Source: Mariprofundus sp. EBB-1 (lineage in GTDB: Bacteria; Pseudomonadota; Zetaproteobacteria; Mariprofundales; Mariprofundaceae). Taken from it: a DNA stretch of 64,000 nt. Numbering within the stretch: the stretch's first letter is position 1; the number at the start of each line of letters is the position of its first letter. This document shows, one piece after another, positions 49,115 to 64,000 of this stretch. Position numbers and translations under genes: made by a program. The stretch spans positions 1-64,000 of the forward strand of contig NZ_RCFQ01000014.1 of NCBI RefSeq assembly GCF_003665155.1, written 5' to 3'. The notes below the pieces were generated by a model. The model ran no database searches. It saw nothing but the letters and a program-made list of their open reading frames with translations, and had not been told where the DNA came from.

Positions 49115-51604
49115 ATGGTTTTTTATATGTGTGTGAAAAATAATGTAAAGCGGGTTTTGTCGCTAACGGTCCTGTTTTTGTTTGCCGGGATATTGGTTTC
49201 TCCTGCAGCGCATGCTGCTGTAGGTGACCGATTAGAGGTTTCCGGAGCCAATGCAAGTTTATATGCCGATCCTGCTGAAACATCCACAGAGCTGGTTCGG
49301 GCTGCTATCGGAGACCAGATGGTTGAGATGGATCGCCGGGGTTCCTGGGTGTTTGTATCGCTGAAGCGTACCGGAGCACAGGGCTGGATGAAGACGTCAG
49401 TGACACGTGAGGCAGTGCGTAAAAGTGTAAAGTCAAAACATCATGTTAAAAAAGCAGTGAAAAATAAGGCGCTGTCGAAACGGGCTCCCATTGCGGTGGG
49501 CTTGAAGACATTGCCGGAGGTTGCAGCGCCTGCATCTAATGCACCCTATCTTGCTAGAACATTGAGTCTGAAAGATATCGGGTTGACTACAGGAATTCTG
49601 TTTGAAGGTGCAAATGGTGTGCATGCGCAGACATTTTATTTTCCTGCACCACTGGACTCCATGATTTCACATGGTGCTTTCCGCTTGATGTTCAGAGCAT
49701 CGCCAAATTTACTGCCCTTGGCGAATGTGCGCGTGTCTATCAATGATGTGCCTCAAAAACAAATTAACTTGCCTGCAGATGGCTCAATGCATGCGCTGGA
49801 TGTGCGTCTGCCCTCATCGGCCTTTAAAGGTAGCTTGGTGAAGGTGACTGTGACGTCTATCTTGCCTGTTTCAGATAACCGCTGCTTTGATGGGCGTTTG
49901 AGTGATATTTTCCTGCATGTATTGCCTGAGAGTGCCTTGTCTATTTCTTACCAGCCTGTCGAGAAGTCTATTCGTGATGCGTGGCGCATGTTACCTCAGG
50001 ATGTGACTATTAGTCTCTCTGCAGGTCGTTTGAGTAAGGAGCAGTTTGCTTCCACACTGGCATTGATGGCGTTGCTGGTTGATGCTGACAAGACAGTAAG
50101 AATCACAAGACTACCTGAAGTTGGCGATATCGTGATTGCTCCCCGGGCATCACTTGATCCTGTTGTCGCTCAGGGCGTGGGTGCAAATAAATCTTTGGAT
50201 GGTGCGAGTAATCTTGTGCTGGCTAAGTTTGCAAATCGTTCAGCTATAGTGCTGTTGGATCCATATGATATTCAGCCGATGTACCTGCTGGATGATACAT
50301 GGAAAATGCTGGCGGCTGCGGAACGTTACCGGGTGTTCAGACCTGACAATATTCACTCACATGTTGAAATGCAGGGTGCCGGTGATGACTCAGGATTCTT
50401 TGCTTTGCCGCTGGCGAAACTGGGTATGGATATAAGTACCAGAGCGCTAAGCAAAGAAACCAATTGGCACACTGTGATTAATCCATTTGCTTTACCGATG
50501 GGTACACAACCGGAGATGCTGAACCTTAATATCGTAGCACCTGTGCGTTGGGACAATGACCCTACCTACGAGCTATATGTGTTCCTTAATGATGTTCTGG
50601 TGAAAGCGGCACGTTTGGAAAATCATGGTATGAAGCAACATTTTACGGTCAATCTGCCGGAAGAGTATCAGAGGCAGTTTAATGATATCCGTATCGTAGT
50701 TCAGCATGATGTTGTGGAAGGTAATTGTGAAGGCGTGATGCCGCACGATTATGTTCAAATTACTCCGGATAGTACTTTGGTGGTGAAGAGCAGCGAAATT
50801 GATGCACCGAAAGCCTTTTCTGATTTAGCCAAGTATTTTTTGCCTGGATTTGACACCTATGTGGAAGACTCTTATTTGGATAAACCTGAGCAGATTCTGC
50901 ATTTGATGTCACGACTATCGGCTGATTTCCCGCTGATAATTGATCATACACGACTGCACTTTATGGCAGCTGGTGATGTGCTGGCTCCTGAAGGACCATT
51001 TGTAGGGGTGGGGCACTTTACGCTCAGTGATGATATTGTCGCACCGGTTCGTTTTGATCGCGGTCGTGTGAAAATTACAGCGCCAAGTGGCGAGTCATAT
51101 TTCGATGTGGATCAACTGTCCAAAATTACGATTGCGCAAATAGCCCGATCTGCAACGGCATACGGTTTGTGGATCGCACCTTCTGATGCAGAGGATCTGT
51201 CGAAAATTGAGCGGCTTGAATTGTCTGAAGATGATGTAGCCTTTATTGATTCACACGGTGTGGCGAAGACCCTGGATTCATCGGAGCCGACATTGGCTGA
51301 AGTCTATTACCCTGATGTTGAAGACTGGTTTGATGTGCTGGGTAAGTATAAATTCTGGTTGATGGTGCTGTTGTGGTTCTTAATGACAATGGTAGTGGTT
51401 TATCTCTATCGTATGTCAAGAATCAACAAACTGGCGCGTGAAGATGATGATGCTATGTATCAGGCGGATGAAGATCAGATGCAGGGTGGTCATGCTGCAC
51501 ACCTGCATGAAGATCAGATGCAGGGTGGTCATGCTGCACACCTGCATGAAGATCACACGATTCACCCAAGTTCTGATTTGGACCACCTTGATGAGAAACG
51601 GTAA
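49115..51604 (+). CDS. BcsB-like periplasmic polysaccharide synthase subunit with SH3 domain
   Basis: The signal sequence (about residues 8-36) is followed by a bacterial SH3-like domain (roughly 38-95, with GAQGWMKTS) and a basic linker. From residue 150 the sequence matches BcsB, the periplasmic cellulose-synthase partner (TFYFPAPLDSMISHGAFRLM; ISINDVPQ-like strands). One transmembrane helix near 745-765 leaves a cytoplasmic tail of about 65 residues, rich in His, Asp and Glu, with a duplicated 13-residue unit. BcsB guides the nascent glucan through the periplasm and is anchored next to the synthase. The start is ATG 49115 because GGTGGGGA precedes it. The synthase gene follows after eight bases. 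Confidence 0.78.
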   Translation: MVFYMCVKNNVKRVLSLTVLFLFAGILVSPAAHAAVGDRLEVSGANASLYADPAETSTELVRAAIGDQMVEMDRRGSWVFVSLKRTGAQGWMKTSVTREAVRKSVKSKHHVKKAVKNKALSKRAPIAVGLKTLPEVAAPASNAPYLARTLSLKDIGLTTGILFEGANGVHAQTFYFPAPLDSMISHGAFRLMFRASPNLLPLANVRVSINDVPQKQINLPADGSMHALDVRLPSSAFKGSLVKVTVTSILPVSDNRCFDGRLSDIFLHVLPESALSISYQPVEKSIRDAWRMLPQDVTISLSAGRLSKEQFASTLALMALLVDADKTVRITRLPEVGDIVIAPRASLDPVVAQGVGANKSLDGASNLVLAKFANRSAIVLLDPYDIQPMYLLDDTWKMLAAAERYRVFRPDNIHSHVEMQGAGDDSGFFALPLAKLGMDISTRALSKETNWHTVINPFALPMGTQPEMLNLNIVAPVRWDNDPTYELYVFLNDVLVKAARLENHGMKQHFTVNLPEEYQRQFNDIRIVVQHDVVEGNCEGVMPHDYVQITPDSTLVVKSSEIDAPKAFSDLAKYFLPGFDTYVEDSYLDKPEQILHLMSRLSADFPLIIDHTRLHFMAAGDVLAPEGPFVGVGHFTLSDDIVAPVRFDRGRVKITAPSGESYFDVDQLSKITIAQIARSATAYGLWIAPSDAEDLSKIERLELSEDDVAFIDSHGVAKTLDSSEPTLAEVYYPDVEDWFDVLGKYKFWLMVLLWFLMTMVVVYLYRMSRINKLAREDDDAMYQADEDQMQGGHAAHLHEDQMQGGHAAHLHEDHTIHPSSDLDHLDEKR
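51470..51547 (+). repeat. Tandem 39-bp duplication in the BcsB-like tail
   Basis: Two identical 39-base units, each encoding EDQMQGGHAAHLH, stand at 51470-51508 and 51509-51547; a partial third begins at 51548 (GAAGATCAC). Perfect identity suggests recent slippage, and the copy number may vary between strains. Confidence 0.9.
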
Positions 51605-51612
51605 TTACAAGG

Positions 51613-53691
51613 ATGAGTACCCAGGCAGGATTAGTAAGGCCTAGAATTGGCGAGATGCTGTTGAGTGATCGATTGATCACTCAACAGCAACTTGATCAGG
51701 CACTTGATCAGCAGCGCAATCAAGGCGGCCGAATCGGGGATATAATTTTGTCCCATGGCTGGGTGAAGACGGCAGAGTTTTACACTGTGTTGTCAGATCA
51801 TTTCCGGCGCGGCCTTATCGGTGATCTGTTGTTGGAAAAAGGGCTGATAAGTCAGGATCAGATGGCAGAGCTGCTTGAAATTCAACAGCAGTGGGGCACC
51901 CGTTTTGGTGATATTGTTCTGTCAAAAGGGTGGGTGTCATCTTATCAGATAGGGCAGGTGCTTGCGGAGCATTTTGGCAAACCCAATGTAAATTTGTTGG
52001 AGGAAGCTCCTGACCGTGATGTGATTGATCGCGATAATTTATCTACCTATTCTGAAAACCTGTTTGTACCCTGGCGACGTGAAAATGGATTGTTGCTAGT
52101 TGCTGTTGTGGATGTGAATCCGGCATTGCTTGCGTTGGTGGGTGACACTGTTGGCGAACCCTTTGATTTTATTATTACGTCGAAATTCGATGTAATCTGG
52201 TTTTTGCAGAGCATTGGCGATATGTTTTATAGTGAAAGGGCTGTACATGAGTTGGCCAATGTACAACCGGAATATTCTGCCAGTGAAGTGATTACTCCAA
52301 AGCAATTGCGTTTTTTGTTTGTCCTGATGAGTTTGAGCATGGTCGTTATCGCATTTTGGCCTCTTGAGGCGTTCATTGTGCTGATTTTCGGAATTTCACT
52401 GTTTTTGATGGTGAATTTCGGTCTGCGTATGGTGCTTACCTGGGTGGGGGGTGATCCAGAATTTGATAATGTCGTGACGGATGAAGAAGTGGCTGCATTG
52501 GATGAAAGAACGCTTCCTGTCTATTCGATTTTGTTACCCATGTATCATGAGGCAGCTACGCTCCCAGCTATTGCGCAGGCATTGCGTTCGATTGATTACC
52601 CTTTGTCCAAGCTCGATATCAAACTTATTCTTGAGCAGGATGATGATGAGACGATCGATAAAGCAAAAGAGCTGAGTCTTGAGGGTATTTTCGAAATTCT
52701 GCGTGTGCCGGATTGTTTGCCCAAGACCAAACCCAAGGCATGTAATTATGCGTTGCACTTTTGTCGAGGTGAATTGGCAACGATCTATGATGGAGAGGAT
52801 GCTCCTGAACCGGATCAGCTGAAAAAAGCTGTGATTGCCTTCCGGAAAGGTGCTGACAACATTGCCGTAATTCAGGCGCGACTTAATTATTTTAATGCCA
52901 CAGAAAATTGGTTAACACGTATGTTTACCATGGAATATTCGTTATGGTTTGATTTTTATCTGCCGGCATTAGATGCACTGAATATCCCTATTCCTCTCGG
53001 TGGTACTTCAAATCACTTTAAGATGGATGTGTTGCGTGAGATGGATGGATGGGATCCTTATAATGTGACCGAGGACTGTGACCTCGGCGTGCGTTTGGTG
53101 CAGAAGGGATATCATGTTGGTGTGATGAATTCTACCACCTTTGAAGAAGCCAATAACTCCATTCCCAATTGGATTCGGCAACGTTCGCGCTGGCTAAAGG
53201 GATATATGCAGAGTTATCTGGTGCATATGCGTACCCCGATTTCGTTTTATCGTAAACTTGGTCACGTTGGTTTTTGGGGCTTCCAGTTTTTTATCGGGGG
53301 TACTATTTTTAGTGCTCTTCTAATGCCTATCATGGCACTGTTTTATGCGGTCTGGTTATTAACCGGTACATCCTATTTCGATCCGTTATTCCCTCCGTTG
53401 GTGCTTTATATTACCTTGTTTAATTTGTCGATTGCCAATGGTTTTCTTATTTATCTGTTCATGTTGAGTGGTTTTAAGCGAAAGTATTTCAATTTGATTC
53501 CATGGGCTATTACCGTGCCGTTTTATTGGATGTTGCAATCATGGGCGGCTTATAAAGGCTTGTGGCAGTTGATTCACAATCCATTCTATTGGGAAAAAAC
53601 CCATCATGGCCTTACTACGTTTGGAGTAGATCATGAAACAGGTGGCGCACCGCATTCAGCTCCGGTTGCCAGTAAGAGTGGTGCGCATTAA
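51613..53691 (+). CDS. GT2 polysaccharide synthase with tandem MshEN (c-di-GMP-type) domains
   Basis: Residues about 10-130 contain two MshEN-like units: RIGEMLLSDRLITQQQLDQA, then a second with GDLLLEKGLISQDQMAELLE, each followed by a GDIxLSxGWV half. MshEN domains bind c-di-GMP. Two helices lie near 235-280. The GT2 core carries LLPMYHE, EQDDDE near 340, YDGEDAPEP near 391 (DxD), TEDCDLG near 485 (catalytic Asp) and RQRSRWLKG near 520 (QxxRW). More helices follow at 550-660. It makes a beta-linked glycan and exports it across the inner membrane. There is no PilZ domain, unlike BcsA. NfrB-type synthases also combine GT2 and MshEN, but with MshEN at the C-terminus. Sugar unknown. Confidence 0.85.
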   Translation: MSTQAGLVRPRIGEMLLSDRLITQQQLDQALDQQRNQGGRIGDIILSHGWVKTAEFYTVLSDHFRRGLIGDLLLEKGLISQDQMAELLEIQQQWGTRFGDIVLSKGWVSSYQIGQVLAEHFGKPNVNLLEEAPDRDVIDRDNLSTYSENLFVPWRRENGLLLVAVVDVNPALLALVGDTVGEPFDFIITSKFDVIWFLQSIGDMFYSERAVHELANVQPEYSASEVITPKQLRFLFVLMSLSMVVIAFWPLEAFIVLIFGISLFLMVNFGLRMVLTWVGGDPEFDNVVTDEEVAALDERTLPVYSILLPMYHEAATLPAIAQALRSIDYPLSKLDIKLILEQDDDETIDKAKELSLEGIFEILRVPDCLPKTKPKACNYALHFCRGELATIYDGEDAPEPDQLKKAVIAFRKGADNIAVIQARLNYFNATENWLTRMFTMEYSLWFDFYLPALDALNIPIPLGGTSNHFKMDVLREMDGWDPYNVTEDCDLGVRLVQKGYHVGVMNSTTFEEANNSIPNWIRQRSRWLKGYMQSYLVHMRTPISFYRKLGHVGFWGFQFFIGGTIFSALLMPIMALFYAVWLLTGTSYFDPLFPPLVLYITLFNLSIANGFLIYLFMLSGFKRKYFNLIPWAITVPFYWMLQSWAAYKGLWQLIHNPFYWEKTHHGLTTFGVDHETGGAPHSAPVASKSGAH

Positions 53692-55224
53692 ATGAACAGC
53701 GCTAATACATCTCGGGTGCACACGCAGTCATGGAGCTTTGCACATCATCAGGGTACATGGCTTTTAATTTTTCTAACCATGATGTTGGTTGGATTGACTA
53801 TTTGGGTGTTGTCAAACGGCTTTTTCCTTGAGTCTGCGATGCAGAGTTGGTCGATTGTCATTTCGGCTTTGGGTTCAGAGGATGTACTGCTTGAAAATCT
53901 GACCATGTTAACACCGCACCTTCCCTTGTATCTGCTGATTCCATTCTATTTTATCCCAGGTCTTGATACTGGTGCCGCGCCATATCTGGTGTCGATCCTT
54001 GCGACATCTTTATTGTTATGGATGTGGGCCAGAGATTTAAAAGATGTGGATATTACCCAGACCAGGCTGGCAATCGTGGCGTTATTGATTGTATTGCACC
54101 CTGCGTTTTTGTGGGCTGCAACGTCGGGTGGACATATTTCACTTACCATGATTACGTTTTATCTGTTGTATCGTTCAGCTCAGCACATTATTACCGTTCA
54201 TGATATCCATTCCTACATTTCGATGGCTGTTGTGTTCGTTGTATTCTTTTTTATTGATGGCACTGCAGTGTATATTTTTGTGGCCTTGATCCCTCTGATT
54301 GTATTGATCGCTCCAATTCGCGCTATCATGATATCACCAATGAGCCTGTACCTGATTATCGGTACGCCGTTTGCCTTCGCCGTGGGTACATGGGCATATA
54401 TGAACTGGATTTTTGAAGGCAGCTTCTCGTTTTTCATTACGAATGCGGATTCTGACTTTTTGGGTGGTATGCTTTCGATTGCCCAATACCCGTGGTTGCA
54501 GGATTATGGTGGTGAATTCTTTCAACCGTTCCTTGTGGCTACGGGCTATTTGTTGATTGCATATCCGGTATCCATTTATTTGTTACTGGATACTATCGAT
54601 GATAACCATCGCTTTCGTGCAACATTTGTATTGATGTTGCATCCGCTCATTGCGATCGGAATTGCGACAAGTCAGCATTATCTTACGCATCCTTTTGAGA
54701 TTTTAACCCTGGTGAGTGCGGGGCTGATGGCAGAGCTTACATATGTAAAAATGCAGACGCGACGCGAATTTATTCTGTTGGTCATTTTCATGATGGTCAG
54801 TATTGTCGGCGGTTGGTGGTTGTTTATTGAAACTGCAAACCCACAAATGACACGTTGGTACAAGGCTATTCAAGGCGAGAATACCTCTGTAGCGATTGTT
54901 GAAGATGCCGACTATCAATTGGGAAAATGGTTAAATACTCATCGCATGCCGACCATTATTTATGAGCGAACTGCTTATCGTGCGATAGTAGCTCGAGGTG
55001 ATGCGGAAGGTCTCTTGTTGTCTTATTCTCACGGATTTAAGTCTGCAATGCGTCAACGTATTCCTGACGTGGAGCAGATAGTGGTCTCTGATCCGGATAC
55101 CTTGGCGGGTAAGCGTGATCGCGTGAATATCAGGCATCCACATTTATATAGCCATGGCATGAGTGGATATAAGTTGGTGTATGATAAGCTTGGCTGGCGC
55201 GTATATCGGAAAATACATGCATAA
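53692..55224 (+). CDS. Polytopic membrane protein of the polysaccharide locus
   Basis: About ten transmembrane helices occupy residues 22-395, followed by a soluble domain of about 110 residues (YQLGKWLNTHRMPTIIYERT). The topology is like GT-C glycosyltransferases or polysaccharide-modifying membrane proteins, though I see no clear catalytic DxD in the first loop. The gene begins directly after the synthase stop (TAA then ATG), so the two are probably translated together. Its role could be addition of a substituent to the polymer or channel formation. I do not recognise the family. Confidence 0.65.
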   Translation: MNSANTSRVHTQSWSFAHHQGTWLLIFLTMMLVGLTIWVLSNGFFLESAMQSWSIVISALGSEDVLLENLTMLTPHLPLYLLIPFYFIPGLDTGAAPYLVSILATSLLLWMWARDLKDVDITQTRLAIVALLIVLHPAFLWAATSGGHISLTMITFYLLYRSAQHIITVHDIHSYISMAVVFVVFFFIDGTAVYIFVALIPLIVLIAPIRAIMISPMSLYLIIGTPFAFAVGTWAYMNWIFEGSFSFFITNADSDFLGGMLSIAQYPWLQDYGGEFFQPFLVATGYLLIAYPVSIYLLLDTIDDNHRFRATFVLMLHPLIAIGIATSQHYLTHPFEILTLVSAGLMAELTYVKMQTRREFILLVIFMMVSIVGGWWLFIETANPQMTRWYKAIQGENTSVAIVEDADYQLGKWLNTHRMPTIIYERTAYRAIVARGDAEGLLLSYSHGFKSAMRQRIPDVEQIVVSDPDTLAGKRDRVNIRHPHLYSHGMSGYKLVYDKLGWRVYRKIHA

Positions 55225-56224
55225 GCGCTTGTTATTATGGTTCATCGTAACTGCTATCGGTCTTTTGGCGGGATGTGCATCTGTTGGTGAATTAAAAAAT
55301 CAATCCATGCTGCGTGGTTTTAATGTGATGCAGCATAAGAATGTCGGCTGGAATGAACCGCAGGCACGGCGCTCAATGCAACGAGTGAGTAATGTAGGCA
55401 GCAATGCAGTGGTGCTTATTACGTTTCTTGAACAAAATGCCGCATCGTCTCTGCAGGTAAGGCATTCAGATGCTGTAAGCTTTGATCAACTAACGCATGC
55501 AATTGAATATGCCCATGACTATAACCTTGAAGTCATTCTTAAGCCGCAAATATTGGTGGGTAATGCATGGGCCAGTGCGATTTCTCATCACAGTCAAAGA
55601 GATTGGAACCAGTGGTTTGAGAGTTATTCAGCGCATATTGTTGAGTATGCCAAGTTTGCATCAAGGCATCAGGTTCAAACATTTGTGATAGGCACGGAGC
55701 TTTCCAAGGCTTCACGACATGTGGATTGGCCAAGATTGATTCATCAGGTGCGCACAGTGTTCCATGGTAAAATCACTTATGCTGCGCATAACGTGGAAGG
55801 TGTTCAGGCCTTTCCATATTGGAATCAGTTGGATGCCGTATCGCTAACGCTCTACCCTTCACTTGGCCGTTCCGGACAATATGACGAAATGCAGTCGCTT
55901 GTTCACGATGCCGTGAAAAAACTACAGCTTTCTGTGCAGGGAATTCATCTGCCGCTTTGGGTGCTGGAGGTTGGCATGCCCTCAGCTGCTGGTGCATCTG
56001 CCAAGCCCTGGGAATGGCATAGTTTGAAACATGCTCGTGTGGACTTGAGATTGCAGCGTGATGCAATAGATATCTGGTTGAGGGCTCTGGATCAGCCTTG
56101 GATCAATGGTGTCTTTATTTGGGCGTGGTACAGTGATGCGTCCATTGGTGGCAGGATGGATGCTGATTACACACCTCAGAATAAACCTGCCGAACAAGTT
56201 ATTCGGCGTTATTGGAAATTTTGA
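55217..56224 (+). CDS. TIM-barrel glycoside-hydrolase-like lipoprotein
   Basis: The signal peptide ends in the lipobox LLAGC; Cys is near residue 20. The mature protein looks like a glycoside hydrolase TIM barrel similar to GH113: candidate catalytic Glu residues lie in FVIGTELSKASR and LWVLEVGMPSA, and the end reads WAWYSDASIGGRMDADYTPQ, a typical GH113 C-terminus. It probably trims or edits the polymer in the periplasm or at the outer membrane. ATG 55217 overlaps the previous stop by eight bases. Endoglycanases of this kind are common in polysaccharide export loci. Confidence 0.7.
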   Translation: MHKRLLLWFIVTAIGLLAGCASVGELKNQSMLRGFNVMQHKNVGWNEPQARRSMQRVSNVGSNAVVLITFLEQNAASSLQVRHSDAVSFDQLTHAIEYAHDYNLEVILKPQILVGNAWASAISHHSQRDWNQWFESYSAHIVEYAKFASRHQVQTFVIGTELSKASRHVDWPRLIHQVRTVFHGKITYAAHNVEGVQAFPYWNQLDAVSLTLYPSLGRSGQYDEMQSLVHDAVKKLQLSVQGIHLPLWVLEVGMPSAAGASAKPWEWHSLKHARVDLRLQRDAIDIWLRALDQPWINGVFIWAWYSDASIGGRMDADYTPQNKPAEQVIRRYWKF

Positions 56225-56226
56225 TC

Positions 56227-57171
56227 ATGCGGATTAAAGGAGTGGATTTGATTCGATTATGGCAACAGATAATTAAATGTATCATATTAATTGCAGGTCT
56301 ATCTCTGGCACCTTCAGCATATGCTGGCGTGGGTATGCTTGCGGGCGGTGAATCGCTATATAATTCAGATCTCAGTTTTGCTGGTGGCAATGCCATTTGG
56401 GATGCAAGTCGCAATAAGATTCTTTCTGTCTGTAAACGTAGAAATGCGAATTTAGTTCAGGGTTATGAGTATGGGTATTCCTATTTTTATACAGTCTATG
56501 CCAATGTGACCTTTGCTTACCGTAAATGTGGGCAAATTTATCGCTCTATGCGCATCAATCGGGTTACAGGCAAGATCAGACCTGCAACGACAAAGTTCGG
56601 TGGGCAGGCGTCCGGTATAGGAGATATTCAAATCGGTGTGCGGGCACGATTGAATCATGCCAATACAGCTGCATGGGAAGGGGCATTGATCATTCCCGGT
56701 GGTTATGATGGTAATAGTCCAGCGACTCTGGGGCGTGGTGCTTTGGGGTTATCCTTAGGACTGAAATTTGCATCTGATGCGGGTTTAAGTAAGCGAAGTT
56801 CATGGGCGTGGAAAATGGGTACGAAGCTGACCTATTTCTTTGCCAGTAAGGGAAATTCAATCACCTCCTTTGGTCAGTTGAGTTATGCCTTTACAGAAAC
56901 AAACTTTGAGCAGACAGGTAATTTTATGTCACTGCGCATCAATAATAGTTTTGCTATGGCGAATAATGGCTTGCAGAAAACACTTTTTTATAATCAGATC
57001 CCATCAAGTTTAACCAATAGTGATTCGACCTCATTATCGCTGGGGTATAGCCATGCCTTTGTAAATTCTGGATGGTCAACAAATGTTCGAGTAGGAAAAG
57101 CATTCTTCGGCCGCAGTTCACCTGTTGATTACACTGCAGGCTGGGGCTTTAGCTACCGTTGGATGGACTAA
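56227..57171 (+). CDS. Outer-membrane beta-barrel protein of the polysaccharide locus
   Basis: A signal peptide (to about AYAGV) is followed by some 280 residues of alternating strands, such as GALGLSLGLKFASD and SLSLGYSHAFVNSG. The last residues (FSYRWMD) do not end in Phe. The pattern is that of an outer-membrane barrel, possibly the export channel or a surface anchor for the polymer. There is no TPR scaffold like BcsC. The start is ATG 56227, but TTG 56248 has a better ribosome-binding site (AAAGGAG). The following gene starts two bases after its stop. Confidence 0.6.
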   Translation: MRIKGVDLIRLWQQIIKCIILIAGLSLAPSAYAGVGMLAGGESLYNSDLSFAGGNAIWDASRNKILSVCKRRNANLVQGYEYGYSYFYTVYANVTFAYRKCGQIYRSMRINRVTGKIRPATTKFGGQASGIGDIQIGVRARLNHANTAAWEGALIIPGGYDGNSPATLGRGALGLSLGLKFASDAGLSKRSSWAWKMGTKLTYFFASKGNSITSFGQLSYAFTETNFEQTGNFMSLRINNSFAMANNGLQKTLFYNQIPSSLTNSDSTSLSLGYSHAFVNSGWSTNVRVGKAFFGRSSPVDYTAGWGFSYRWMD

Positions 57172-57172
57172 A

Positions 57173-60100
57173 ATGAAAGCAAAGAAATCTCTAAAACTGT
57201 GTCTGTTGCCACTGCTAACTATAGCAGTGGCCGTTGGCGTGGTGCATGCAAAAGAGGGAGATGTTTATAGCTTGCAGGCTGATTCGAGTTTGCGCAAGGG
57301 CCCTGATAGCTTTTATGTACCAACCGGTAGTGCTGCAAAAGGAGCCCGGGCGATTGAGTTGAACAGTGCTGGTGCATGGAAAAAAGTGCGAATATTTTCC
57401 AGTGGTGATGTGGGTTGGATCAATAGTGCTTCTCTTTCTGGTGAGTCTGTGAATGTTGGCTCGTCGAAGGTTGTGAATGATAATGTAGGGACTGAAAAAT
57501 CAACGCTTCCAGCCGTGGTCGTGAATAATGATCTGAAACTGTCGCCGAAGCCTGCAGCAGATCTGTCGCCACAATTTGAAAGCGGAACACCTGCTGTGTC
57601 GGGACCTACTGATGTCGCTTTGGTAGATCAAAAGCAAGTGCCTCCATCAAAGCCAGTTGTGCAAGAGATGACTCCTTCAAAGGATCATGTGGATGGTGGG
57701 CGTATAACGCCATTGTTTGAGGATGGTGCTGTATCTCAGGAGATAGCTCCGGAACGTGTGGCAGACCAGCCTGTTGCAAGTGCTGAACAGATGTCTCCGG
57801 CAATAGAATCGGCTCAAAAAGAGTTGCCTGTATCCGTTCAAGCAGAGCTTGCTAAAAGCGAACCTATGCTTGACCCTGATAACACTGGTTTGCAACAGTT
57901 CCCTGTTCAGTTGGTGAGTAGTAGTCCAAATGAAGTAGATGCTCCTGTTGCGGAAAATGTAATAAAAATGGCTGCAAAAGAGGAGTCTGCTGCGGCGAAC
58001 ACTCAGACTTCCGGCGATATGGCTAGGGTGCCGGCAGCAGAGCAATCGTTGAGTGCTCCTGAAAATCTAGTGTCGGACACTGCAAGGCTTGAAGTAGAAC
58101 CCATCCAAAAAAGTATTCCTGCATCAGATGCAATGGGTAATGTTGGAGTGAAACCTGAAGCTGCGCTAAACAATGAGACTAAAAGTGCATCATCAGGACC
58201 ATTAAATCTCGCAGTAGAACCTACGCAGAAAAATATTCCTTCATCAGATGTGATGGATAGTGCTGAAGTGAAGCCTGTATCTGCGCCTGATAAGAATACT
58301 AAAATTGTAGCATCAGAACCATTAAAGCTTGCAGTAGAACCAACACAGAAAAATATTCCAGCATCAGATACGATGGATAGTGTTGAAGCGAAGCCCGTAG
58401 CTGCGCGTAATAATGATGTTGTAACGATTGCCAACACAGAGACCAATGAACCTGTAGGAGCATCACAAATGGTGATGCAAACAACAGTGATCAGGGTTGG
58501 TCCCAGTGCCTTGTCAGAAGTGTTGGGATGGGCTGGATCAGGTGCCCGGGTTCAGACCATTCAGCAGGATGGCAAATGGATGAAGGTACGATTGCAGGAT
58601 AGCGGTCGTATTGGTTGGGTTGAGGCCGCATCTTTGGATGGTAGCAATGTGGTTGCTACTTCTGTAGTGATGACGAATAAGCCAACTAGTGAGCCAGTCA
58701 TCGAAGCGGTTAACGAGCCAGTTAATAAGCCAATCAACGAACCAGCACCAGTTAATGAACCGGAACAATTAGTGCAGAAGGCGCCCGTTGAGCCGCTTAC
58801 TGCTACTGATTTGAATAGTTCCAGCACGGCTAAAGCCGTTGATACTGCTGCCGTTACTCCTGACAAGATGGTGGAGAATCAAGGCGAAGTACAGGCTATG
58901 CCGCAGCAGACAAGCCCTAATGTAGAAACCACCCGGACAGAAGTGGTGCCTGCCAAGAGTGAAAAAGCGACCTATACATTCAATCGTACAGCAGCCCTTA
59001 GAGATGGGCCTGCTACAACATTTGATTCGGTTTCATGGGCTGGTGCGGGGGCGCAGGCAACAGAACTTGAACGCAAAGGTGATTGGGTACGTCTTCAATT
59101 GCAGGTGAGTAAAAGGATTGGTTGGGTTTATGATCAATCACTGAATCTCGTTGCGGCGGGCGCAGGAGTGGCAAGTAGTGCTGCAGCAGCGAGTGCGCCA
59201 TCAGCCAGCTTAACTGTACTGCCGGTGCAAATGACGCAAACCAGTGATCAGAAGCCTTCTATTGCAACTCCAGTGCGTGAGAATATTAAAGCAGATCCGG
59301 TTATTGCAAACGTTGAGCCGAAAGCTGTTCAGGCTACTGATATTAAAAAAACATCCAGCGCAATCCATAAGCTCTATAGTTTTAATGAAAAAGCTAATTT
59401 ACGAGCAGGGCCGGCTGTAACGTATGATGTGGTTTCTTGGGCGGGTGTTGGCGCATATGCGTTAGAGCAGGATCGCAACGGTGACTGGTTGCGAGTGCAG
59501 TTGCAGGCGAATAAACGTATAGGCTGGGTAAACATGCGATTGTTGACTCCGGTAAAAGCCGGTGCAACAGCGCAAGCGGCTATCACTGCGAATGCTGATG
59601 CGGCACCAGCTGTGGTGATGAATGCTGATAAGGCTGTTAAGTTGCCAGAGAAATCCATTGATGATTCTGATCATAAACTACATTTCTTTAAGCAGACGAG
59701 TACTTTGAGAGCAGGCCCCGGCAAAGAATTTGAAAAGGTTGCATGGGGTGGCAGGAATGAGTCAGCCGTGCAAATCGGCCACAGTGGTGATTGGAAACAA
59801 GTACGCATGACTATTAGTGGAAAAACAGGCTGGGTATTTAACGAGTACCTGGTGCGCGCAATGCATCCTGGCCATATCATGGGTGTGACCCGCTCAATGC
59901 TATCACCTGCTGTAAAAAGTATGGGGAAAAATGGCCAAATGTATCTGGTCGTACGTACGGTACCATTGCGTGCCGCGGCGGGGGATTTGGCTGACTTAAT
60001 AGGCTCTGTTCAAAAAGGTGATCTGGTCGCGTGGCTGGAAGAACGCAATGGCTGGGTGAGAGTGAATCCACAAATCGATGGTGGTAAAATCGGTTGGATT

Positions 60101-61897
60101 GAAGCGAATCTATTGAGAAAGCAAGAGCAGTTTAACGTTGAACGTACGCAGGCATTAATCGGCAAAGACAATATGCTGTCGTATAAAGATAGAATATCAA
60201 AAGGTGAAGTGTTTAATTTTTCATATGCGGCTCTGGAGGAAGCTTTATACAAGATTCCTGTTGAGGACATTCACATCCGTATTAGCAAGGATAATCTGGA
60301 AGCTATCTTCCTGAAACGACAGTACGATCTTTCTCCCTTTGAGATGCGCTTAACCACGGGAAGACATCGTTTGTCAGGCACAATCAAGGTGCTGGGTAGT
60401 TCGACGCGTATCTTTAAGAAAAAATCCTTACTCATTAAATTGGATAAAGAGAGTGCGCGCTGGTATGGCCATCGCCGCATGGCGTTGCGTTCTATGGCAT
60501 CTGATAAAGCCTTGATGCGGGAATGGATGACCTGGAAAATGATGGCGGCTCTTGGCATGAAAGTGCCGGAAGTACACTTTACGCGCGTAACCTTTAATAA
60601 GGGTGAGAAAACCGGTCTATATCTATCCATTGAGTGGATGGGAAAAGAGTTTCTTGAAGGCAATAATCTGGATACACGCGGAGAGTTTTATCAACCCAAC
60701 GATGGAGCCCACTGTGGTGACCTGTATTCACCCGAAAGTGTAGAGTTATGTTTTGATAAGATTACGCCATTTGGGGATTTCAGTAATCTTAAATCAATGG
60801 CAAAATCTGTGAATGCGGCTACCAATGAAAATATAGATACCGTGTTGGCAAAATATTTTGAAGATGAATCCATCATTAACTGGATTGCTGTGAATGCACT
60901 GGTGACCAATGGTGACACATATAATAAAAACTACTGGCTTTATTATCATCCCACAAAAGAGAAATGGACCGTGGTGCCGTGGGATTATAATCTGACATTC
61001 GGGCGCACATATGATCAATATGCAACGCGGAAATTCAGAATTTTTAATGATAACTTCCAATATTATTATCCACCTGATGTAGGAGCTGGTAACCCGATCA
61101 AAGATAAAGTGTTGCGTAACCCTGCACTTAGAAAACGTTTGGAAGAGAAAATCAAACATTTGACGGGTATGGAGCCAAATGGTTCAGAACAGACGTTTGG
61201 CTGGTTCTCTCCTACTGTGATGCAGGCACGTATTGGAAATCTCGCCTCGGTGGTAGGTAAAGAGGTGTATAAGGATTCATTCCTCTCTTATGGTGAAGCT
61301 GATTTCACGAAAACATATGAGTCATTGATACATTATGTTACTGCACACGACCATTTTCTGAAGACGAAGCTGTTTGGAGATTTCCCATGGGCTCCTGAAC
61401 CACCAAACCAGCCATATGCTTTCATGCATTTGCCTGAAACATTGCTTGGTGAGGGAAACATCGAGGCCGGCTCTGAATCACTACATATGGTGGATCGTAG
61501 CTGGGGATATTTTGTGGCGCATCTGAATTTGAATGAACCATTGAAGAGAAAAGCAGCGTTTGAAGTAAAAATTGAAGGTGGCGTAACGCCTAAATATCTT
61601 CCGAATGTTGTGCAATCTGCTAGCCGATGCATTGAACGTTCATGGTTGCTGAAAACGAAAACGGATAAGGTTTCTGTTACGGGTGACCTTATGATTGAAT
61701 ATACGCAGGAAAATTCACGGCGTTCTGAAGTGCCTCCAAGGGTTCATGAAGAACTGCTGGAACTGTGGATGCTTGATGGAAAGCGTTGGAAACCCATTCA
61801 AACTGAAGTCAATGAATACTCGAATACGTTGACTGCTAAAAATGTGCATGTGGAATCAGGCCATCATTATCGATTTGTTGCGTGTAGCCCGTTCTAA
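57173..61897 (+). CDS. Exported six-SH3b protein with CotH-type kinase domain
   Basis: A signal peptide (to about VVHAK) is followed by SH3b domains near residues 25-85, 435-490, 598-660, 733-793, 833-894 and 923-982, separated by Ala/Pro/Glu/Ser/Thr-rich linkers. Residues about 1060-1290 are a CotH-like kinase domain: ARWYGHRRMALRSMASD, KVPEVHFTRVTF, NGDTYNKNYWLYYHP near 1243 and VVPWDYNLTFG. A C-terminal region of some 280 residues is unassigned. B. subtilis CotH phosphorylates spore-coat proteins with ATP. Here an exported version sits in a polysaccharide operon, next to a nucleotide-transporter-like gene. SH3b units may bind peptidoglycan, peptide or polymer. Substrate and ATP source are open. 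Confidence 0.75.
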   Translation: MKAKKSLKLCLLPLLTIAVAVGVVHAKEGDVYSLQADSSLRKGPDSFYVPTGSAAKGARAIELNSAGAWKKVRIFSSGDVGWINSASLSGESVNVGSSKVVNDNVGTEKSTLPAVVVNNDLKLSPKPAADLSPQFESGTPAVSGPTDVALVDQKQVPPSKPVVQEMTPSKDHVDGGRITPLFEDGAVSQEIAPERVADQPVASAEQMSPAIESAQKELPVSVQAELAKSEPMLDPDNTGLQQFPVQLVSSSPNEVDAPVAENVIKMAAKEESAAANTQTSGDMARVPAAEQSLSAPENLVSDTARLEVEPIQKSIPASDAMGNVGVKPEAALNNETKSASSGPLNLAVEPTQKNIPSSDVMDSAEVKPVSAPDKNTKIVASEPLKLAVEPTQKNIPASDTMDSVEAKPVAARNNDVVTIANTETNEPVGASQMVMQTTVIRVGPSALSEVLGWAGSGARVQTIQQDGKWMKVRLQDSGRIGWVEAASLDGSNVVATSVVMTNKPTSEPVIEAVNEPVNKPINEPAPVNEPEQLVQKAPVEPLTATDLNSSSTAKAVDTAAVTPDKMVENQGEVQAMPQQTSPNVETTRTEVVPAKSEKATYTFNRTAALRDGPATTFDSVSWAGAGAQATELERKGDWVRLQLQVSKRIGWVYDQSLNLVAAGAGVASSAAAASAPSASLTVLPVQMTQTSDQKPSIATPVRENIKADPVIANVEPKAVQATDIKKTSSAIHKLYSFNEKANLRAGPAVTYDVVSWAGVGAYALEQDRNGDWLRVQLQANKRIGWVNMRLLTPVKAGATAQAAITANADAAPAVVMNADKAVKLPEKSIDDSDHKLHFFKQTSTLRAGPGKEFEKVAWGGRNESAVQIGHSGDWKQVRMTISGKTGWVFNEYLVRAMHPGHIMGVTRSMLSPAVKSMGKNGQMYLVVRTVPLRAAAGDLADLIGSVQKGDLVAWLEERNGWVRVNPQIDGGKIGWIEANLLRKQEQFNVERTQALIGKDNMLSYKDRISKGEVFNFSYAALEEALYKIPVEDIHIRISKDNLEAIFLKRQYDLSPFEMRLTTGRHRLSGTIKVLGSSTRIFKKKSLLIKLDKESARWYGHRRMALRSMASDKALMREWMTWKMMAALGMKVPEVHFTRVTFNKGEKTGLYLSIEWMGKEFLEGNNLDTRGEFYQPNDGAHCGDLYSPESVELCFDKITPFGDFSNLKSMAKSVNAATNENIDTVLAKYFEDESIINWIAVNALVTNGDTYNKNYWLYYHPTKEKWTVVPWDYNLTFGRTYDQYATRKFRIFNDNFQYYYPPDVGAGNPIKDKVLRNPALRKRLEEKIKHLTGMEPNGSEQTFGWFSPTVMQARIGNLASVVGKEVYKDSFLSYGEADFTKTYESLIHYVTAHDHFLKTKLFGDFPWAPEPPNQPYAFMHLPETLLGEGNIEAGSESLHMVDRSWGYFVAHLNLNEPLKRKAAFEVKIEGGVTPKYLPNVVQSASRCIERSWLLKTKTDKVSVTGDLMIEYTQENSRRSEVPPRVHEELLELWMLDGKRWKPIQTEVNEYSNTLTAKNVHVESGHHYRFVACSPF
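58091..58440 (+). repeat. Three tandem 120-bp repeats in the SH3-CotH gene
   Basis: Units starting at 58091, 58211 and 58331 encode about 40 residues each around the core VEPTQKNIPASD and then MDSAEVKPV. The DNA copies differ at many sites, so the expansion is older than the 39-bp duplication upstream. Between SH3 domains, such repeats probably act as spacers. Confidence 0.85.
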
Positions 61898-61971
61898 CAG
61901 TGGGTGTTTGATTTTATAGGTGATCAGAATAGAGCGTTTAAAGGAAATCAAAAAGTGGAACTACTAAGATA

Positions 61972-63234
61972 ATGAACATCAAACAGCTCACACAAGGAAT
62001 ATGGGACGACATGAAGAGTGAAGAGGGTAAGGCGACGTTTCGTTTTGCTGTTCGCCTTTTCCTGATCCTGCTTGCCTACTATCTCATGAAGCCCGTTCGG
62101 GAAGAGTTGATTCTTGATGGCGGCAGCGCTGCTATTCGAAGTTATGCGCTGGCGGGGCAGGCTGCTCTGTTATTGCTGTTGGTCCCTTTTTATAGTCACA
62201 TTATTAAACACCTGCATGGCGATAAGTTGTTTCTTATTGTGACCCTGTTTTTGGCTGGCAATATTGGCGTGTTTTATTTGCTTGGTTCTGCGGGCATGGA
62301 TATAGGCGTGGCATTCTTTGTCTGGTTGGGTATTTTTTCGGTGGTACAGATCTCCCAGTTCTGGACCATGGTCAGCGATTATCACTGTGTAGATAAGGGT
62401 AAGAGGCTAACTTCATATATCGCAATCGGTGGTTCACTTGGTGCCATGATTGGTGCGATGATCGCTAAATCGCTCTATATTGAGTTAGGTGCCTATAATT
62501 TGATGTTACTGGCTGTGTTCATGCTTATCGTGGCCGTATTTATTCCAGGTGCTAAAGAAGGCTTGCGTAAAGACCATCATGATGAAGATGCGGATGGTGA
62601 GTCCATCAAACATCTGCTGGGTGGATTGAAACGGGTGATGGATGTGCCTTACCTGCGCTGGATTGCTGCATCAGTGGTGTTACTCAATCTGATTAATTCA
62701 ACCGGCGAATTTGTGCTGGCCAGTTTTGTGACTGCGGAGATGAGCGGGCATGAAATCGGAGCTTTTTACTCAAGTTTTTATCTCTACGTGAATATTGCCA
62801 CGCTGGTATTGCAGGCCTTTGTAGTGCGGCCATTGTATCAGGTGATTGGTGTGGGCGGAGCTTTGATCAGTTTGGCAGCCATTAACTTGATGATGTATAT
62901 GTCGGTGCTTGCATTCCCTGTGCTGGCTTGGTTTGCCATTGTCAAAATGGCCGATAACAGTATTGATTATTCTGTCGCGAATACCACCAAGCAGATCCTG
63001 TTTTTGCCACTGGATCGTTTTACGCGCTATGAAGGTATGTTGGCGATCAATACGTTTTTCACCCGCTTTGGTGATTTGATTCAGGGCGGTGTGATTTTTG
63101 TTGTGATTTCTATGTTGGCCATGTCACCAATGACATTGGTATGGACGAATATCGTATTATGTCTATTGTGGTTGTATGTAACTGTGAACGTTAGCCGACG
63201 GTTTAAGAAACAAACAGTATCCACGAATATGTGA
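61972..63234 (+). CDS. Nucleotide-translocase-like (NTT/Tlc-related) MFS transporter
   Basis: Twelve hydrophobic helices with FAVRLFLILLAYYLMKPVRE near the start, the pattern seen in NTP/NDP exchange transporters (Tlc, Npt family) and their MFS-like relatives. These relatives exchange ATP for ADP or carry other anions; for many bacterial members the substrate is untested. It starts 75 bases after the CotH-domain gene on the same strand. Beside an exported kinase, supplying ATP to the periplasm is an attractive idea but remains unproven. Confidence 0.65.
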   Translation: MNIKQLTQGIWDDMKSEEGKATFRFAVRLFLILLAYYLMKPVREELILDGGSAAIRSYALAGQAALLLLLVPFYSHIIKHLHGDKLFLIVTLFLAGNIGVFYLLGSAGMDIGVAFFVWLGIFSVVQISQFWTMVSDYHCVDKGKRLTSYIAIGGSLGAMIGAMIAKSLYIELGAYNLMLLAVFMLIVAVFIPGAKEGLRKDHHDEDADGESIKHLLGGLKRVMDVPYLRWIAASVVLLNLINSTGEFVLASFVTAEMSGHEIGAFYSSFYLYVNIATLVLQAFVVRPLYQVIGVGGALISLAAINLMMYMSVLAFPVLAWFAIVKMADNSIDYSVANTTKQILFLPLDRFTRYEGMLAINTFFTRFGDLIQGGVIFVVISMLAMSPMTLVWTNIVLCLLWLYVTVNVSRRFKKQTVSTNM

Positions 63235-63328: not shown

Positions 63329-64000
63329 ATGAGTGATAGATTAAAAGCAGTGGTATTGGCAGGCGGTTCCGGAAGTCGTCTGTGGCCGTTGTCGCGTCAG
63401 CAGTTACCAAAGCAGTTTCTCAATTTAAATGGCCATGAAAGTATGTTGGGCGCCACGATTAACCGCTTAAGTCCATTGATCGAAAGAGATAATGTATGGG
63501 TTGTTACGGGTGAGAAACACGCGACTGGCGAAGCTTTTTCTGAACTTGATGGGCTGAATACGATGTTGGAACCCTGTGGACGCAATACAGCGCCTGCTGT
63601 CGCGCTCAGTGCAGCACTGATGCAAGATTTATACGATGATGATCCAATTATGGTGGTTTTGCCTGCCGATCACATTATATCCAAGAAAGATGCGTTCCAG
63701 GCTTGTCTGCAACAAGCAGTAGAAGCCGCTAAAGCAGGGCGACTGGTAACATTCGGCATTTTCCCTAATCAGCCGGAAACCGGTTTCGGTTATGTCCAGA
63801 CTGAAGAAAGTGTAGATGGGATTCACCGCGTACTTCGTTTTGTTGAAAAGCCGAATAAAGAAAAAGCTCAAAAAATGCTGGATGATGGTAACTATTACTG
63901 GAATTCCGGTATGTTTGTCTGGAGAGCATCAGTTATTCTGGCTGAAGTCGAAAAATATTTACCGGATGTGTGGGCTGTCTTGCAAGATATGCGCAAGCGT
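63329..64000 (+). CDS. manC: Mannose-1-phosphate guanylyltransferase (partial at window edge)
   Basis: The open frame from ATG 63329 (AGAGGG upstream) has no stop before the window ends, giving 224 residues. VVLAGGSGSRLWPLSRQQLP is the nucleotide-binding signature, followed by LPADHII, TFGIFPNQPETGFGYVQ, FVEKPN and YYWNSGMFVW, all typical of ManC/AlgA-type type II enzymes. It makes GDP-mannose from mannose-1-phosphate and GTP, feeding mannose or its derivatives into polysaccharide synthesis. A phosphomannose isomerase domain may follow beyond the window. Confidence 0.9.
   Translation, partial: MSDRLKAVVLAGGSGSRLWPLSRQQLPKQFLNLNGHESMLGATINRLSPLIERDNVWVVTGEKHATGEAFSELDGLNTMLEPCGRNTAPAVALSAALMQDLYDDDPIMVVLPADHIISKKDAFQACLQQAVEAAKAGRLVTFGIFPNQPETGFGYVQTEESVDGIHRVLRFVEKPNKEKAQKMLDDGNYYWNSGMFVWRASVILAEVEKYLPDVWAVLQDMRKR

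Follow-up and report, generated by a model that had tools for sequence, protein, structure and literature searches.

In Bacillus, the substrates of CotH are spore coat proteins, which it reaches inside the mother cell. In other settings, CotH genes are found alongside the Pel operons of Gram-positive bacteria (PMC7112168), and in S. intermedius the loss of SIR_1594, a predicted secreted CotH protein, gave a mutant with altered Pel levels and reduced aggregation (PMC12345266). A further CotH gene belongs to the sfz cluster (stalk formation in Zetaproteobacteria), for which Koeksoy et al. 2021 described the SH3 and CotH architecture of Sfz6 and annotated its neighbour as an "ATP-ADP antiporter" (PMC8250860). 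That work conferred no function on sfz6, mentioned an interaction with the cell wall for its product, drew no link between Sfz6 and the antiporter, observed that the antiporter gene is not unique to stalk formers, and stated that Betaproteobacteria are without sfz5 and sfz6 (PMC8250860). Among carriers of the NTT type, mutants of AtNTT1 at K527 and K155 lose or weaken nucleotide binding, with K527E abolishing ATP binding and K527R weakening it to >1 mM (PMC3306366), and two microsporidian NTTs differ at three of the four charged positions while retaining K527 (PMC4256464).

The stalk gene cluster of the window

The window, by which we mean the whole 64,000-nucleotide stretch of Mariprofundus sp. 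EBB-1 DNA that was analysed, carries the sfz cluster at 49115-63234, with sfz1-sfz6 complete and in the published order, followed by the carrier gene and then by a ManC-type gene. This is the order common to stalk-forming Zetaproteobacteria, in which sfz1-sfz6 are followed by the "ATP-ADP antiporter" and a phosphomannose isomerase (PMC8250860). The genes are as follows:

49115..51604, + strand: sfz1, BcsB-like exopolysaccharide synthase accessory protein (Pfam BcsB, E=6e-20; order and orthologues match the sfz cluster)
51613..53691, + strand: sfz2, MshEN (c-di-GMP) plus family 2 glycosyltransferase (Pfam, NCBIfam)
53692..55224, + strand: sfz3, without Pfam match (Pfam scan, cluster comparison)
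55217..56224, + strand: sfz4, GH113-type glycoside hydrolase (Pfam GH113, E=2e-44)
56230..57171, + strand: sfz5, without Pfam match; accompanies CotH in Gallionellaceae too
57173..61897, + strand: sfz6, predicted exported SH3-CotH protein, 1574 aa (ATG at 57173, stop at 61897)
61972..63234, + strand: NTT-fold (TLC-like, MFS superfamily) putative transporter, 420 aa (ATG at 61972, stop at 63234)
63329..64000, + strand: ManC-type mannose-1-phosphate guanylyltransferase, truncated by the window end (NCBIfam GMP_PMI, E=7e-74)

The carrier gene starts 74 bp downstream of sfz6. Similar to the secreted Gram-positive CotH proteins found with Pel operons, Sfz6 is encoded next to an exopolysaccharide synthase system (PMC7112168, PMC12345266), but the partners there include a polyphosphate polymerase and DUF4956, and no NTT carrier is among them, unlike in the window. 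An independent link between this type of CotH and a cellulose-like synthase operon is found in Ferriphaselus R-1, where a gene for a TPR-CotH protein comes after a PilZ glycosyltransferase (bcsA-like), bcsB and GH8 in one apparent operon (L130:4841-15573), without an adjacent carrier.

Sfz6 and the adjacent carrier

The features of the two products discussed below, all on the + strand, are:

57173..57250, + strand: signal peptide MKAKKSLKLCLLPLLTIAVAVGVVHA, predicted cleavage after VHA (residue 26), from sequence reading, hydropathy and recurrence in relatives
57251..60290, + strand: bacterial SH3 repeats with low-complexity linkers between them (Pfam SH3_3, six stretches, E=8e-35)
60383..61357, + strand: CotH kinase domain, residues 1072-1396 (Pfam PF08757 and structure model)
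60395..60427, + strand: GSSTRIFKKKS motif, conserved in alignments, presumed to lie on the nucleotide-binding side of the CotH fold
60914..60916, + strand: predicted catalytic Asp of NGD, invariant in 18/18 zetaproteobacterial rows and nine Gallionellaceae proteins
60983..60985, + strand: Asp of PWD (DFG-like), invariant in the same 18/18 rows and nine proteins
61439..61894, + strand: C-terminal beta domain, common to Gallionellaceae relatives (model strands; A1 profile matches reach its end)
62707..62709, + strand: Glu246 of the carrier, corresponding to AtNTT1 E385, kept
63064..63075, + strand: RFGD motif, with carrier Asp368 at the AtNTT1 K527 position

By every feature tested (profile, predicted fold and the two Asp residues), Sfz6 is a member of the CotH kinase family. 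It matches Pfam CotH (PF08757) from profile position 1 to 321 (of 322), scoring 174 bits where the cut-off is 23.8 (E=7e-51), and B. cereus CotH (5jda/5jd9) is the best structural match of its AlphaFold model (E=6e-15, TM 0.78 by target), a model with a mean pLDDT of 77.6 that falls below 50 at model residues 207-210 and 238-265, flanking the active site. Both NGDTYNKNYW and VPWDYNLTFG are present, and their NGD and PWD Asp residues align with 5jd9; we take them to be the equivalents of D228 and D251 of B. subtilis CotH. That both are kept in every stalk-family member examined is new here, and a pseudokinase arising through Asp loss was ruled out on this ground. Around them, the residues preceding the NGD Asp vary among the aligned proteins, stalk-type members have Asn in place of the second PWDYD Asp, and the GSSTR..KKS motif persists, slightly altered, across the zetaproteobacterial and Gallionellaceae alignments. 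The signal peptide is the sole hydrophobic segment of Sfz6 by hydropathy, and an export-type N-terminus recurs in its relatives. Similar to the Bacillus spore-coat kinase (5jd9/5jda), Sfz6 has both catalytic Asp residues and, by prediction, the kinase fold; unlike it, Sfz6 appears to be exported and carries SH3 repeats and an additional C-terminal beta domain. We consider it likely that Sfz6 is an exported putative CotH kinase acting on stalk material.

The carrier is, by profile and predicted fold, a member of the NTT fold superfamily, and we do not file it as an ATP/ADP translocase. It passes the Pfam model for TLC ATP/ADP transporters (30.7 against a cut-off of 21 bits) with a match covering only about the C-terminal quarter, it matches 9j3j by profile (E=5e-20), and its model (pLDDT 80.3) has as best solved matches NTT1 of Chlamydia pneumoniae and of Arabidopsis (TM 0.75 and 0.81 by query). 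The likeness to the characterised translocases (AtNTT1, 9j3j/9j3l; Chlamydia pneumoniae NTT1, 9j3n) thus extends to the fold, the 12-helix layout, the C-terminal signature region and E385, but identity over the structural match is 16-17%, and K155, E245 and K527 are not retained. For this comparison, AtNTT1 K155, E245, E385 and K527 were located in the 9j3j chain by shifting their numbers by a constant 84, which returned K, E, E and K; in the 9j3j alignment the carrier retains one of these four charged residues, E385. The Asp368 found at the K527 position is conserved as Asp through the carrier subfamily. Given the published K527 and K155 mutants, these changes leave ATP/ADP exchange by the known mechanism unsupported by sequence, and at the level of residues a standard ATP/ADP exchanger is disfavoured.

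These results confirm what a sequence-only reading of the DNA had observed and bear out its interpretation in part. The two genes lie where it placed them (57173-61897 and 61972-63234), with start and stop codons found; the CotH motifs it quoted (NGD...NYW and PWDYNLTFG) are both in Sfz6; the signal peptide it saw is predicted here too and recurs in relatives, pointing away from a cytoplasmic location; and the structural comparison with CotH that it proposed returned the B. cereus protein, with no loss of catalytic Asp. Its range for the CotH domain (residues 1060-1290) does fall on the domain and is slightly short of the 1072-1396 given by Pfam. Its relation of the next gene to ATP/ADP exchangers holds for the NTT fold, but calling the carrier an exchanger is not supported, three of the four charged residues being changed, K527 to Asp among them.

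Distribution of the pair

The CotH gene was readable in 18 of 78 zetaproteobacterial genomes, and the carrier is the next gene in 18/18. In the 39 genomes with a completeness of 90% or more, CotH never occurs in the absence of the carrier, and two of them (G059 and G065) have a carrier with no CotH seen, the carrier being at or near a contig edge in both. The pair is retained in a genome of another family (G002), where the carrier is 33-35% identical. The second sfz copies of G050 and G057 include a CotH gene but no carrier next to it. When stalk-type clusters are compared with dread-type ones, the carriers are 84% identical and the CotH proteins 44%, so that the carrier appears to form with ManC a stable flank beside which the upstream sfz cluster was swapped. 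Second cluster copies of the dread type were seen at L071, L072 and L083, where the genome also has a stalk-type cluster. Additionally, Mariprofundus genomes hold a second NTT paralogue, about 25% identical (L073-L082), which at L074 is neighboured by beta-lactamase-fold genes.

Within Gallionellaceae, sfz6-type CotH was found in 7/150 genomes and NTT in exactly those seven and no others, although these represent few independent events and the counts ignore shared ancestry. This overlap and the 18/18 adjacency in Zetaproteobacteria are new here, the sfz paper not having linked Sfz6 and the antiporter. Strong sfz1 matches occur in the same 7/150 genomes; this equal co-occurrence supports one stalk system containing both proteins, and the correlation may reflect that single system instead of a kinase-carrier partnership. 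The arrangement differs among the seven: the carrier and ManC adjoin CotH in G475, carrier and sfz1 share a contig in G562 and G483, about 5 and 8 kb apart, respectively, carrier and sfz genes are on different contigs in G549, and carrier and CotH are unlinked in G433 (Ferriphaselus sp. R-1), G449 and G457. Because of these unlinked loci, co-occurrence is not merely operon hitch-hiking. No ManC was seen beside the carrier in G433, G449 or G457, where the sfz genes are elsewhere. Four of the seven genomes have an NTT solely from another branch, with canonical-like charges (K155 and K527 kept, Asp at E245 and E385), and an NTT of this other branch adjoins the sfz cluster in G475. One Gallionellaceae genome has tandem NTT-like genes of different branches (L147:2-2784).

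Genes of the sfz5 and sfz6 types are present in Gallionellaceae at L132 (Ferriphaselus sp. R-1, G433:C3), L153 and L155-L159, and four genomes have sfz1-6 in a single cluster. These complete clusters correct the published view that Betaproteobacteria are without sfz5 and sfz6 (PMC8250860).

A general association of CotH and NTT across Pseudomonadota was rejected (2/9 vs 42/374 outside Zetaproteobacteria, p=0.28). No NTT was found near other Pseudomonadota CotH genes in 11 stretches from nine genomes, using a simple ORF pick that may miss GC-rich genes, and wider homologues of the carrier are mostly without CotH. In a quick tree, the window carrier clades with those of Ferriphaselus, Chromatiales and Acidobacteria and one more (SH-aLRT 99). 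The Chromatiales carriers of this clade flank exported metallophosphatase proteins (L112, L114) whose C-termini are weakly FAM20-like (E about 0.004-0.05), with NxDR and LIDHSR motifs. Tested as possible relatives of CotH, these metallophosphatase proteins gave no A1 profile match.

The sister clade (38 rows) is mostly in operons with NADP-type oxidoreductases. An AKR, SDR or F420-type gene lies at most two genes away on the same strand in 28/40 loci, vs 1/352 of the other genes there, a contrast whose p-value overstates independence, since the loci were chosen after these data had been looked at before and include many close relatives. Tat-like signals, scored by our own simple rule, were found in 27/47 operon neighbours vs 27/421 others. 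Such loci, with NTT-like genes beside Tat-exported AKR, SDR or F420-type NADP oxidoreductases, were seen in ten families (L190-L222). Three unrelated enzyme folds with one common cofactor suggest the cofactor as the shared denominator of these operons. Nevertheless, the single sister-clade member scanned matched MFS_1 better than TLC, so that what is moved by these carriers could instead be the substrates of the enzymes. A search of a limited literature collection gave nothing useful on NTT cryo-EM, periplasmic NADPH with AKR, or ATP supply to secreted kinases.

Possible roles of the pair

The sequence-only reading had proposed that the pair could phosphorylate material outside the cytoplasm. 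The association and the retained Asp pair favour this proposal, and an ATP/ADP exchanger is not supported; the co-occurrence it put forward for checking holds by adjacency in the 18/18 zetaproteobacterial genomes with a readable CotH gene and by presence in 7/7 Gallionellaceae genomes, whereas the wider homologues usually lack CotH. As we would now formulate it, Sfz6 and the carrier may together serve the stalk-making (sfz) system as a unit for extracytoplasmic phosphorylation. Sfz6 would be exported via its signal peptide and held in the envelope by its SH3 repeats, its CotH domain would take phosphate from a nucleotide and place it on material of the stalk or envelope, whether matrix protein or polysaccharide, and the NTT-like carrier in the inner membrane would feed the kinase by swapping a charged nucleotide outward for a spent one inward. 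Kinase activity, a nucleotide as transport substrate, the direction of exchange and the target of phosphorylation are what we infer here. Nucleotide supply by the adjacent carrier is a plausible best single account of the pairing, one drawn from association, and we give the unit as a whole slightly less than an even chance. It gains from the carriers of the window clade that flank FAM20-like regions in Chromatiales and from the sister-clade carriers beside exported NADP oxidoreductases; it loses from the retention of E385 alone, from sfz1 in the same seven genomes, from the stable flank of carrier and ManC, from the extra CotH genes of G050 and G057, and from the missing phylum-wide association outside Zetaproteobacteria.

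Several of these points would fit a different arrangement, in which Sfz6 is an active exported kinase on stalk material and the carrier, unrelated to it, serves polymer building with ManC, moving e.g. a sugar nucleotide, a nucleoside monophosphate or another anion, both being kept as parts of the stalk system. The carrier and ManC do stand together in Zetaproteobacteria and in G475, the carrier tracks that flank and not CotH, sfz1 co-occurs as tightly as the carrier does, and the key ATP-exchange residues are changed. However, co-occurrence holds in G433, G449 and G457, where the carrier has no ManC seen alongside, and related carriers adjoin exported nucleotide-dependent enzymes, so we regard this arrangement as possible but doubtful. 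We judge it unlikely that Sfz6 lacks kinase activity outside the cell, with its CotH domain acting instead as a module for structure or binding in the stalk apparatus. The periplasm is not known to contain an ATP pool, and the Asn in place of the second PWDYD Asp points the same way; the sfz paper, too, left the function of Sfz6 open and mentions cell-wall interaction (PMC8250860). Against such a module, both catalytic Asp residues are invariant across very divergent members, which a module would not require. A chance neighbourhood with no functional link at all is very improbable: the carrier also occurs outside the stalk formers (Koeksoy et al., PMC8250860) and there is no association across the phylum, but chance is disfavoured by a near-perfect co-occurrence in two classes that arrange the genes differently.

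Returning to the phosphorylation unit, it may be one case of something wider. NTT-fold carriers of free-living Gram-negatives might provide exported nucleotide-dependent enzymes with a general service of nucleotide exchange across the inner membrane, of an ATP type for CotH and FAM20-like kinases and of an NADP type for Tat-exported AKR and SDR enzymes, with the window as the kinase version, phosphorylating an iron-mineralising stalk; we offer this as a speculative extension that may well prove wrong. Uncharacterised NTT relatives, like the window carrier, also figure in Major et al. 2017 on NTTs of free-living bacteria (PMC5381601), and the portion of that paper considered here does not propose a link to exported enzymes.

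Co-occurrence in the stalk cluster suggests, short of proof, nucleotide export for phosphorylating the extracellular stalk matrix. It bears on how an exported bacterial kinase could obtain its nucleotide and on the role of NTTs in free-living bacteria, and with the two genes linked in an iron oxidiser that can be cultured, both questions become directly testable. Phosphate esters in the stalk, if present, would offer a clue to the binding and templating of Fe(III) by stalks, a matter relevant to stalks as biosignatures.
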